Shown in pieces: positions 1,991-21,616 of a DNA stretch of 30,299 bases (within the stretch, counting starts at the first letter, position 1; every line of letters begins with the position of its first letter). A program made the translations under genes and the position numbers. Below the pieces are notes generated by a model, which had not been told where the DNA came from, made no database searches, and saw only the letters and a program-made list of their open reading frames with translations. The stretch is from a virus, in the IMG/VR virus record IMGVR_UViG_3300044675_001482, positions 1-30,299 of that record; one strand, written 5' to 3'.

Positions 1991-2184
1991 CCTACATCCT
2001 CCAGACCGGCCCGTGGCACATCGGCCCGTTCGCCACCCACGTCGCGGCGCAGCACTTCGCCGAGACGCACGGCATCGATGACTTCCGCATGATCCCGCTG
2101 GATGACCCGGCAGAGGCGCCAGGGCGCATCGCGCGGCTGCGGATGGCTCCGCTGAAACATCCGATGGCGAGGGTGCGCGAATAG
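1987..2184 (+). CDS. Hypothetical 65-residue protein next to the attachment region
   Basis: The product begins MTYILQTGPWHIGPFATHVAAQHFAETHGIDDF and ends in a basic tail (RIARLRMAPLKHPMARVRE). The start overlaps the preceding stop (ATGA). Its last codons and TAG stop are part of the first 19-bp arm-type repeat, so the gene directly borders the attachment site. A small, partly basic protein beside attP could be a recombination directionality factor (excisionase), but no winged-helix motif can be identified by eye, and the call stays hypothetical. Confidence 0.55.
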   Translation: MTYILQTGPWHIGPFATHVAAQHFAETHGIDDFRMIPLDDPAEAPGRIARLRMAPLKHPMARVRE

Positions 2185-2192
2185 TGCGCGAA
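2174..2192 (+). repeat. Left arm-type repeat of the attachment region
   Basis: The 19-bp sequence TGCGCGAATAGTGCGCGAA is found here and again at 2424-2442 with no mismatch, exactly 250 bp apart. Each copy is itself two TGCGCGAA units offset by 11 bp, about one helical turn. The two copies flank the tRNA-like core, as expected of integrase arm-binding sites on either side of attP. Arm-site function is inferred. Confidence 0.6.
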
Positions 2193-2208
2193 CGGCGCCC
2201 AAGCGATT

Positions 2209-2227
2209 AAAACCGCCTTGCTGGCGG
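2209..2227 (-). terminator. Minus-strand terminator just after the tRNA-like half
   Basis: Read on the minus strand, CCGCC (2227-2223) pairs with GGCGG (2217-2213) across a 5-nt loop and is followed by TTTT (2212-2209). No protein gene ends nearby on this strand. It lies 33 nt past the CCA end of the tRNA-like half, where a terminator for a tRNA transcript would be expected. This fits a phage that restores both the tRNA 3' end and its terminator after integration. Confidence 0.45.
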
Positions 2228-2259
2228 CACCTCTAAAGCCTTGCAATTACTGGGGAATT

Positions 2260-2304
2260 TGGTGAGCCCGGCCGGGTACGATCCGGCGACCCTCTGATTA
2301 AAAG
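2260..2304 (-). other. Candidate attP core: 3' half of a tRNA-Lys(UUU)-like gene
   Basis: Read on the minus strand, the 45 nt correspond to tRNA positions 32-76: anticodon loop CTTTTAA (anticodon TTT at 2302-2300), variable loop GGGTC, a perfect 5-bp T stem GCCGG/CCGGC, acceptor 3' strand CGGGCTC, discriminator A and an encoded CCA. The 5' half is missing: upstream sequence does not pair with the anticodon stem beyond two bases and no GAGCCCG acceptor strand is present. Phage attP sites often carry such tRNA 3' halves. The T loop reads ATCGTAC rather than TTCGAAY, so positions 54 and 58 are exchanged, which is odd. Confidence 0.6.
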
Positions 2305-2318
2305 TCGTCTCAGAGCAG

Positions 2319-2337
2319 TTCACGGAAATTCACGGAA
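2319..2337 (+). repeat. Short direct repeat beside the attachment core
   Basis: TTCACGGAA occurs at 2319-2327 and again at 2329-2337, a 10-bp spacing of one helical turn. It lies between the tRNA-like core and the right arm-type cluster. It could bind integrase or an accessory protein. The repeat is seen; the role is a guess. Confidence 0.35.
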
Positions 2338-2390
2338 TCTCTCTAAGCCTCTGATTCAGCCACCAGAATCGCACTTGCCTTCTCACGGCA

Positions 2391-2442
2391 GTTCGCGCAA
2401 TCTCAGCCCCGTTCGCGCAAATCTGCGCGAATAGTGCGCGAA
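2391..2442 (+). repeat. Right arm-type repeat cluster upstream of the integrase
   Basis: Two copies of GTTCGCGCAA (2391-2400 and 2411-2420, exactly 20 bp apart) contain the inverse of the TGCGCGAA unit. They are followed by the complete 19-bp repeat at 2424-2442. Together they give four TGCGCGAA-type units, two in each orientation, ending 10 bp before the integrase ATG. Integrase bound here would also cover its own ribosome-binding region, so self-regulation is plausible. Confidence 0.6.
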
Positions 2443-2452
2443 TGGAGAGGCC

Positions 2453-3544
2453 ATGAAACGAGAGTGGATCCCTGACACCAAGGTGCCCGGCTTGGGCATC
2501 CTGAAGCTGCCCAGTGGCGTGGAGACTTGGTACCTGCGGTTCAGGGAACCGGGCGGCAAGCAGCAGCACCACAAGATCGGCCGGCTGCCGATCGTCAGCC
2601 GCACGCTGGCTAGGGAGGAGGCGCACAAGCTGCTAGCCGCTGTGGCCAAGGGTGAGGCGCCCACCAGCGCGCGGCAGGAGCTGCGCCGCGGGCCAACCGT
2701 GGCGGATCTCTACGCCCGGATCCAGCTGGAGCATTACGGCAAGCTGCGCACCAAGACCCGCGCCGGTTACCGGAGCATCTGGGAGGCGCACATCATTCCC
2801 GAGCTGGGCACCACCAAGGTGCAGCAGGTGACCACCGCCCAGGTGATGAAGCTGGTCCAAACGGTCGGTGGCACGCAAGCCAACCGGACGCTGGCGGTGC
2901 TGCGCAAGGCCATGAACCTGGCGATCCTCTGGGGACTCCGGCCGGACAATCCCTGCACCAAGGTGCCGGGCAACGGTGAGCGGAAGCGGCGCCGGTATCT
3001 GAGCCGCGAGGAAATGGCGCGGCTGCTGGCTGCGCTCGAGGCATTCGCGCCGGCTGGTGTCCGCTGGCGGTTTGCCCAGCTGATCCGGCTGCTGCTGCTC
3101 ACCGGCTGCCGCGTCTCGGAAGTCAAGGATGCCCGCTGGAGCTGGGTGCAGGGCAGCGTGCTGGTGGTCCCGCCTGAGTGCCATAAGACTGGCCGCGATG
3201 GCCACCCGCGGCTGGTGCAGCTGACGCCGCCAGCGCTCGAGGTGCTCGAGCAGCTGCGCGCCCGGTCCAACAGCGAGTGGATCATCCAGGGCGATGGCGA
3301 CCACCCGCTGGTGGGTTACCAGAAGCTGTGGGAGGAGCTGCTGACCGCGGCCAAGATCACTGACCTGTTGGTGCATGATCTGCGCCACAGCTATGCGTCG
3401 ATGGCCGTGAGCGCCGGGTTGACGCTGAAGCAGATTGGTGGGCTGCTCGGTCATGCCAGCCCTCTGACCACCGACCGCTACGCCCACCTGATCGAGGAGG
3501 CTGCGGCTGCTGCAGCTGCCAAGGTCGTCGCGGCGATGGCATAA
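2453..3544 (+). CDS. int: Phage integrase, tyrosine recombinase family
   Basis: The product is 363 residues. The N-terminal part (about 1-75) resembles the arm-binding domain of phage integrases, a core-binding helical domain follows (about 80-175), and the catalytic domain covers about 183-350. All catalytic residues are visible: R220 in TGCRVSEV, K245 in HKTGRDG, H308 and R311 in HDLRHSY, H334 in LGHAS and nucleophile Y343 in TDRYAHL. It catalyses site-specific integration and excision at attP/attB. The ATG at 2453 is preceded by GGAGAGG. The gene starts 10 bp after the arm-type repeats. Its TAA stop lies inside the A-run that is the T-run of the opposing late-operon terminator, so the two transcription units converge. 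A poly-alanine stretch near 350-357 forms the C-terminal tail. Confidence 0.97.
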   Translation: MKREWIPDTKVPGLGILKLPSGVETWYLRFREPGGKQQHHKIGRLPIVSRTLAREEAHKLLAAVAKGEAPTSARQELRRGPTVADLYARIQLEHYGKLRTKTRAGYRSIWEAHIIPELGTTKVQQVTTAQVMKLVQTVGGTQANRTLAVLRKAMNLAILWGLRPDNPCTKVPGNGERKRRRYLSREEMARLLAALEAFAPAGVRWRFAQLIRLLLLTGCRVSEVKDARWSWVQGSVLVVPPECHKTGRDGHPRLVQLTPPALEVLEQLRARSNSEWIIQGDGDHPLVGYQKLWEELLTAAKITDLLVHDLRHSYASMAVSAGLTLKQIGGLLGHASPLTTDRYAHLIEEAAAAAAAKVVAAMA

Positions 3545-20809: not shown

Positions 20810-21616
20810 TCAGATGCAGTTGCTGTTGAGGTACAGGTTGTCGCCCACGGAGCTGCCCCCGCCGCCACCGGTTGCGCTAATCGTACCGGCGGAAAGAGTT
20901 AAACCGCTTCCAATACTGATCTCTTCGGCCACACCCGTGCCAGCAGTTGAGCGGCCCAGCAGTTTGCCGGTGCCCATGCTGGTGCTGACGGTTTGCGTGC
21001 CGCTGTCATAGGAGATCGGCGCTGTAGCCGCGACCACGCCAGCTGGGCCTTGCGGGCCGGTTGCACCCGTAGCGCCCGTTGCACCGGCAGGGCCTTGAGG
21101 CCCAGTGGCACCCGTAGCGCCGGCCGGGCCGGTGGGGCCGGTATCACCCGTGTCTCCCTTAGGGCCCTGCGGACCTGTCGCACCAGTGGCGCCCGTAGCT
21201 CCTGTGGCGCCGATGGCACCAGCCGGTCCCTGCGGGCCGGTGTCGCCAGTGTCGCCTTTCAGGCCCTGCGGGCCTTGCGGGCCTGTGGCGCCTGTTGCAC
21301 CTGTGGCACCCGTAGGACCGGCCGGGCCTGTATCGCCAGTGTCTCCCTTGGGGCCTTGCGGACCTATTGCGCCAGTGGAGCCCGGCGCGCCGGTAGTGCC
21401 TGTGGGGCCGGCTGGACCCTGCGGGCCTGTCGCACCGGTAGGCCCCTGTGGTCCCTGCTGCCCCACGAAATACCCGAGGCTGTTCCAGGCCGTAACACCG
21501 TTGCCAACCTTGAACTGGCCGGTGTCGGTCTCATAGCCAAGCTCACCCACAAGCAGCACCGTGTTGGCTGCTGTCCATTGGGCTGCTGTCTTGCGTTGGG
21601 CCTGTACCTTTGCCAT
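20810..21616 (-). CDS. Collagen-like fibre protein
   Basis: The product is 268 residues. Residues 1-50 ([38 protein letters not shown]) match the short N-terminal trimer domain found in Mtd-like and other phage fibres. Residues 52-192 are 47 unbroken Gly-X-Y triplets (GPQ, GAT, GPK, GDT, GPA), which form a collagen-type triple helix. A C-terminal domain of about 75 residues includes a poly-Gly hinge. No lysine-rich tip is seen. Collagen stalks in phages carry fibres or tip domains. Its start overlaps the stop of the connector gene upstream by one base. Confidence 0.92.
21041..21463 (-). repeat. Collagen Gly-X-Y coding repeat
   Basis: Forty-seven consecutive triplets with Gly at every third residue are encoded here, with recurrent blocks such as [10 protein letters not shown] and [12 protein letters not shown]. 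The repeated 9-nt and 18-nt DNA units make the tract prone to length change by recombination or slippage. Confidence 0.9.

Follow-up and report, generated by a model that had tools for sequence, protein, structure and literature searches.

An attP site built on a tRNA-Lys(UUU) 3' half in a siphovirus-like phage related to Synechococcus phages, and its relatives with tRNA halves or whole tRNA genes

The window, i.e., the whole stretch of DNA analyzed here, constitutes a complete IMG/VR record (30,299 bases). Its region 2174-2442 very probably represents an intact attP from a temperate, siphovirus-like phage; this site would be bound by the phage integrase and would target a host tRNA-Lys(UUU) gene at its anticodon loop. 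The first-pass annotation had proposed an intact attP belonging to a free or induced phage or to a phage-derived contig, and the fact that both arm clusters flank a single core supports this proposal. Related phages carry the same arms around other tRNA pieces, and the evidence is about evenly balanced on the wider claim that the family switches repeatedly between a tRNA half and a whole spare gene placed for host-promoter capture, the arm-core distance changing by whole helical turns.

Organization of the attachment region

The 8-mer TGCGCGAA was found at 2174+, 2185+, 2392-, 2412-, 2424+, and 2435+, with a single further copy in the whole window at 30102-. These seven copies compare with 2.06 expected, and seven were reached in 0/100 shuffles. 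With six copies in 270 nt, this is the top 8-mer cluster of the window, the runner-up 8-mer having four. The features of the region are listed in Table 1.

Table 1. Coordinates of the features of the attachment region in the window.
Feature	Position	Strand	Description
Small conserved phage gene	1987..2184	+	Its TAG stop codon doubles as the 3-bp spacer within the left arm pair
Left (P) arm	2174..2192	+	Two direct putative integrase arm-type sites, TGCGCGAA-TAG-TGCGCGAA; exact repeat of 2424-2442
Weak terminator-like hairpin	2206..2228	-	GCCGCC AGCAA GGCGGT TTTAAT, 3' of the tRNA half
tRNA-Lys(UUU) 3' half	2260..2304	-	45 nt, anticodon loop to CCA, read from sequence
CCA	2262-2260	-	Part of the tRNA-Lys half
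A73	2263	-	Part of the tRNA-Lys half
Acceptor 3' strand	2270-2264	-	Part of the tRNA-Lys half
T arm	2287-2271	-	Part of the tRNA-Lys half; perfect 5-bp T stem
Variable loop	2292-2288	-	Part of the tRNA-Lys half
3' anticodon stem	2297-2293	-	Part of the tRNA-Lys half
Anticodon loop with UUU	2304-2298	-	Part of the tRNA-Lys half
Recombination core (putative)	2296..2306	+	GATTAAAAGTC, anticodon loop and inner stem; in whole-tRNA relatives, the one tRNA part kept between the two arms
Right-side inverted arm unit 1	2392..2399	-	Position conserved, -32 relative to the right pair
Right-side inverted arm unit 2	2412..2419	-	Position conserved, -12 relative to the right pair
Right (P') arm	2424..2442	+	Two direct putative arm-type sites; identical to 2174-2192
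Tyrosine integrase, 363 aa	2453..3544	+	Intact ORF; arm-binding, SAM-like (core-binding), and catalytic domains

Most of what the first-pass annotation had described in this region was recovered as it stood: the two identical 19-bp repeats (2174-2192 and 2424-2442) with units 11 bp apart match exactly, the 45-nt tRNA-Lys-like 3' half at 2260-2304 runs from the UUU loop to CACCA with a perfectly paired T stem, and the integrase start given as 2453 opens an intact reading frame (2453-3544). The two inverted units that it had placed at 2391 and 2411 are present, but each position had to be shifted by one base, to 2392 and 2412. The left arm pair is kept in about 60 relatives, and the recurrence of the layout in about 60 independent contigs is far beyond chance. 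As in a canonical tRNA-gene attP, repeats of the arm type lie on either side of the core, as far as sequence can tell. These observations support the identification of the TGCGCGAA units as arm-type sites, to which the integrase would bind.

The integrase gene adjoins the site, which is the canonical position of a tyrosine recombinase gene beside an attP. The protein matched PF13356 (2.9e-11), PF14659 (4.1e-7), and PF00589 (3.7e-18), and its N-terminal arm-binding, core-binding, and catalytic domains are those of a heterobivalent (lambda-type) integrase. The catalytic residues R220, K245, H308, R311, H334, and Y343 are invariant among the aligned relatives. No integrase relatives were detected in two scans of 84,980 species genomes, a result that was counted against the attP explanation, as was the lack of attL and attR among the viral contigs. 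In eight contigs (L058, L077, L093, L103, L113, L116, L117, and L122), the left arm pair is kept while the core and nearly all of int are gone, and all eight end in what appear to be the last codons of int. Deletion seems to have cost these phages their capacity for lysogeny, probably on more than one occasion. Internal deletion or decay beside an attP or arm pair was also observed in L047, where int is in fragments, and in L066, where int residues 184-294 are present, with a TGA.

The tRNA half and the core

The minus strand from 2304 to 2260 reads CTTTTAA TCAGA GGGTC GCCGG ATCGTAC CCGGC CGGGCTC A CCA, and thus provides from the crossover onwards a contiguous 3' half including the CCA, as in canonical tRNA-gene attP sites. 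Pairing with a tRNA 5' side, followed rightward from the core, ends at position 29 (window 2307), so that the phage holds only positions 30-76 and no 5' half. No whole tRNA was found in the window by ARAGORN. The Rfam scan of the half gave no match, as expected of a half.

The T loop ATCGTAC (2276-2282) departs from the usual TTCRANN, and this was counted against the attP interpretation with a rebuilt tRNA. The same loop, in which positions 54 and 58 are swapped with respect to TTCRANN, also occurs in the phage tRNA-Lys pieces of L075, L160, and L171. The idea that ATCGTAC reflects the avoidance of a TTCGAA restriction site was unsupported in the case of the window. The terminator-like hairpin following the half was missed by a stricter terminator scan. 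Since such a hairpin occurs in just 7 of 32 half-carrying relatives (and in 0/12 whole-tRNA relatives), it is not a general feature.

Phage origin of the flanking DNA

The closest isolates are the Synechococcus phages S-CBS3 and S-CBS1 (endolysin 70%, portal 63-65%, and a tail protein 68%). The temperate, siphovirus-like phage is related to S-CBS1, S-CBS3, and S-LBS1, which have homologous endolysin, portal, tail, and terminase genes; its hosts, assigned by these relatives, are aquatic bacteria, probably cyanobacteria. A collagen-like protein with GxY repeats is encoded among the tail genes (20810-21616). The phage differs from S-CBS1 and S-CBS3, which have no annotated integrase, and from S-LBS1, the integrase of which is set among tail genes. 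The arm pair was absent from all three genomes, with up to two mismatches allowed. The att sites proposed for S-LBS1 are 14-bp repeats inside genes (PMC6157547).

Of the 2,152 bases to the left of the site, 1,870-1,900 are matched, at 88-90% identity, by the corresponding left-hand DNA in the phage contigs L054, L056, and L099, the targets of which are tRNA-Phe or tRNA-Met, unlike that of the window. Host genes to the left of 2184, which the first-pass annotation had named as the finding that would contradict it, are not what lies there: this flank is phage DNA, as the small conserved gene at 1987-2184 also shows. The fact that the flanks on both sides consist of phage DNA common to the relatives, as expected of an attP and not of an attL or attR, indicates that the attP is unintegrated. 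The contig L014, which has the same arms and integrase, carries a 127-base terminal direct repeat and hence corresponds to a closed phage genome of about 55.3 kb; other relatives of 55-57 kb are circularly permuted against it. In view of these closed or permuted relatives of 55-57 kb, the phage genome is most likely larger than the window, which would represent one part of it. No attL or attR junctions were found among the 97 contigs with an arm pair. Whole tRNA-Lys genes with the right anticodon arm gave at least 120 matches in viral contigs, and among the matches listed none had arm pairs around the core, i.e., the attR arrangement.

A family with exchangeable tRNA cassettes

The relatives, which were collected both by their integrase and by their arm pair, comprise about 60 distinct att regions, with 97 contigs carrying the arm pair. 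In nearly all these att regions the core is an anticodon loop. The exception is L069 (950-1205), where the spacing is of the whole-tRNA type (187 nt between the pairs) and there is neither a recognizable anticodon-loop core nor a tRNA gene at the locus. The cores on the minus strand are those of Lys(UUU), Asn(GUU), Thr(UGU), Phe(GAA), and initiator Met(CAU), and those on the plus strand are those of Thr(UGU), Arg(UCU), Arg(UCG), and Gly(CCC). The tRNA piece is therefore a cassette that is swappable among seven amino-acid types, as read by eye from the anticodons, under shared arms. The Met halves end in ...CCCCGCA-ACCA, with A72, which is the mark of an initiator tRNA. Pairing of the T stem is 100% in each of the 21 half types, and compensation was counted in 32 cells versus 7.8 in shuffles; part of these 32 cells reflects the different tRNA species, and the stems among the Lys halves co-vary too. 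A tRNA-Lys 3' half nearly the same as that of L004, without the TGCGCGAA arms, was observed in L155, L158, L233, L241, and L242, which probably represent other integration systems aimed at the same host gene.

All types on the minus strand have 118-120 nt between the core and the right arm. The distance from the left arm to the core in these types is 104-106 nt when the half is present, 94 nt in some Met phages, 84 nt in L027, and 62-63 nt when the half is absent; the plus-strand types show 59-60 nt on the left and 130 or 140-142 nt on the right. The class means of the left arm-core distance fall within 0.5 nt of 10.5-nt steps (1, 2, and 4 turns), and three random indel lengths fitted helical steps as well in 0.3% of trials. 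As there are few independent events, the pattern is only suggestive of spacing changes by whole helical turns. It fits a looped integrase complex tolerating whole turns only, and in this respect it supports the units being arm-type sites.

Relatives carrying a whole tRNA gene

In 12 contigs (L002, L010, L011, L012, L013, L014, L025, L031, L033, L034, L046, and L099), the half is absent and the anticodon-loop core alone is kept, with no T arm and no acceptor strand between the arms and a spacing of 62-63 nt. All 12 carry a complete tRNA gene within about 10 nt outside the left arm. This spare tRNA is tRNA-Lys(UUU) in 11 of the 12 and initiator tRNA-Met in L099, the core of which is that of tRNA-Met; it thus has the isotype of the core and lies on the strand of the target in 12/12, the target being read from the core and not from a host. 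The spare tRNAs scored 60-78 bits with Rfam (11 scanned), and each is the sole tRNA gene in the six whole-tRNA contigs scanned entire. No tRNA genes were found in 11 half-type contigs, two of which (42-43 kb) were read with a gap of 2-3.5 kb. In most whole-tRNA relatives, the tRNA stands in place of the upstream gene, and the spacer of the left pair is no longer TAG.

Beyond the spare tRNA lies the same phage DNA as that bordering the left arm in half-type kin, which means that the spare gene is phage-borne. A search for its host by blastn against plasmids and phages gave only distant matches, to unrelated bacteria and phages. No terminator-like hairpin was detected between the core and the spare gene in any of the 12, and no consensus promoter was found for the spare tRNA in L014, a scan of one relative that carries little weight; the spare gene may have a promoter of its own.

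The whole-tRNA-Lys type requires four changes on a tree of 50 integrases, at least three of which are forced by well-supported branches, the count of independent switches depending on a tree in which some branches are weak. The Met case (L099) is a fifth, separate origin on this tree. Half and whole types occur as sisters: L032 (half) with L033 (whole), and L099 (whole) with L057 and L094 (half). Recombinational exchange of the left part of the attP, rather than change in place, may account for part of this pattern.

In tRNA-dependent lysogeny, which was described in actinobacteriophages in 2024, a short core is combined with a cognate phage tRNA (PMC10865867). The core of the 12 relatives is likewise too short to rebuild the tRNA, and these phages fit this type of lysogeny, in which the spare gene would be needed by the lysogen. 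The window itself, where the half is present and no whole tRNA occurs, is not of this type.

Predicted course of integration

Binding of the integrase encoded from 2453 is predicted at the six TGCGCGAA arm sites and at a core (about 2296-2306), and this core would recombine with a host tRNA-Lys(UUU) gene within its anticodon loop. The predicted attB is a tRNA-Lys(UUU) gene carrying GACTTTTAATCA in its anticodon arm; the host tRNA is expected to have the anticodon arm TCTGACTTTTAATCAGA, the acceptor GAGCCCG/CGGGCTC, and the CCA. The phage would contribute the tRNA from position 30 to the CCA (2260-2306), the host 5' half and the phage 3' half would form a whole tRNA under the host promoter, and the host's own 3' half would end up at the opposite end of the prophage. 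In the whole-tRNA type, the host gene would be cut and replaced by the cognate spare gene outside the left arm. Transcription started at the host promoter would then cross the 5' half, the core, 62 nt, and the left arm before reaching the spare gene, which has the same orientation in 12/12; we infer that the spare gene would use the host promoter in this way.

Alternative interpretations

Because tRNA 3' halves are generally known to mark prophage ends, the record might derive from an integrated prophage or result from an assembly join, with the half coming from a host gene at the phage end. This is highly improbable, given that the half is flanked by both arms and lacks its 5' counterpart, that both flanks are phage DNA common to contigs with other tRNA targets, and that the relatives are closed or circularly permuted phage genomes. 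It is hardly more credible that the half is a functionless tRNA fragment in decay: the odd T loops of the window and L016 might suggest it, but the CCA, the acceptor strand, and the fixed spacing are all retained, and T stems are fully paired, with compensatory change, in 21/21 half types. The possibility that a repressor or excisionase controlling int has its operators in the TGCGCGAA units, which would then not be arm sites, has more in its favor and is nevertheless quite unlikely. The right cluster sits at the place expected of the int promoter, pairs accompanied by inverted units look like operators, and the left pair is retained in the eight phages without int. This last point reads as a deletion scar, however. 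The left pair is set about 280 nt upstream, on the far side of the swappable cassette from int, and its distance from the core shifts in helical steps, as expected for a looped intasome; moreover, Int carries an arm-binding domain.

As regards the whole-tRNA relatives, the spare tRNA might serve lytic translation or defence against tRNA-cutting enzymes, its location at the attP being incidental. Such uses of tRNAs are common among phages, and tRNA-Lys(UUU) is the target of PrrC of E. coli (PMC10865867). We consider this explanation unlikely since no other tRNA gene occurs in the six such contigs scanned entire, and since the spare tRNA always has the isotype of the core, in the Met as well as the Lys phages, is never found alongside a half, and always adjoins the left arm in the orientation of the target.

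Possible implications for cyanobacterial lysogeny

Lysogeny has been described as rare in unicellular cyanobacteria, and inducible prophages were not found in Synechococcus or Prochlorococcus isolates (PMC6157547). In view of this reported rarity, the junctions predicted here are useful: the family points to specific genes as targets, among them those of tRNA-Lys and initiator tRNA-Met, and defines exactly which junctions to seek. The relatives probably add a second phage group with tRNA-dependent lysogeny, as well as a new placement of the spare gene. This bears on points left open in 2024, namely tRNA-dependent lysogeny beyond the actinobacteriophages and its relation to half-tRNA sites, the half and whole states being found here in close sister phages within one integrase family. 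If the proposed use of the host promoter is true, this would be a promoter-capture form of tRNA-dependent lysogeny outside the actinobacteriophages.

Comparison with known systems

Half-tRNA attP sites are classical, and the window is a member of this canonical kind. It resembles the lambda-type attP in having an integrase with an arm-binding domain and arm sites on both sides of the core, and differs from it in that the target is a tRNA gene and the arms are pairs of 8-bp units with a 3-bp spacer.

In the mycobacteriophages Boilgate and Ximenita, a core of 38-45 bp contains a tRNA-Lys(UUU) 3' half (PMC10865867). These phages and the window have in common a tyrosine integrase beside the attP, arm-type sites on both sides, a core starting from the anticodon loop, and a 3' half supplied by the phage. 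Unlike them, the window belongs to a different, cyanosiphovirus-like phage group, and its family exchanges the tRNA half among seven amino-acid types under shared arm units and shows an arm-core spacing that seems to step by helical turns.

The phages in which tRNA-dependent lysogeny was described are Fionnbharth, Cain, LeBron, Gaia, and Mollymur, and the authors left open its frequency in other phages and its relation to the half-tRNA type (PMC10865867). The relatives L014, L033, L002, and L099 show the same combination of a short core and a phage tRNA of the same isotype, and the half and whole types are close kin in the family of the window, as are Cain and Ximenita. The tRNA of Fionnbharth, however, lies away from the attP, overlapping gene 37, and has its own promoter, and that of Gaia lies downstream of int (PMC10865867), whereas the relatives of the window place the spare tRNA directly next to the left arm and in the orientation of the target. 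In a further departure from the known tRNA-dependent phages, one of these relatives (L099) uses the initiator tRNA-Met.
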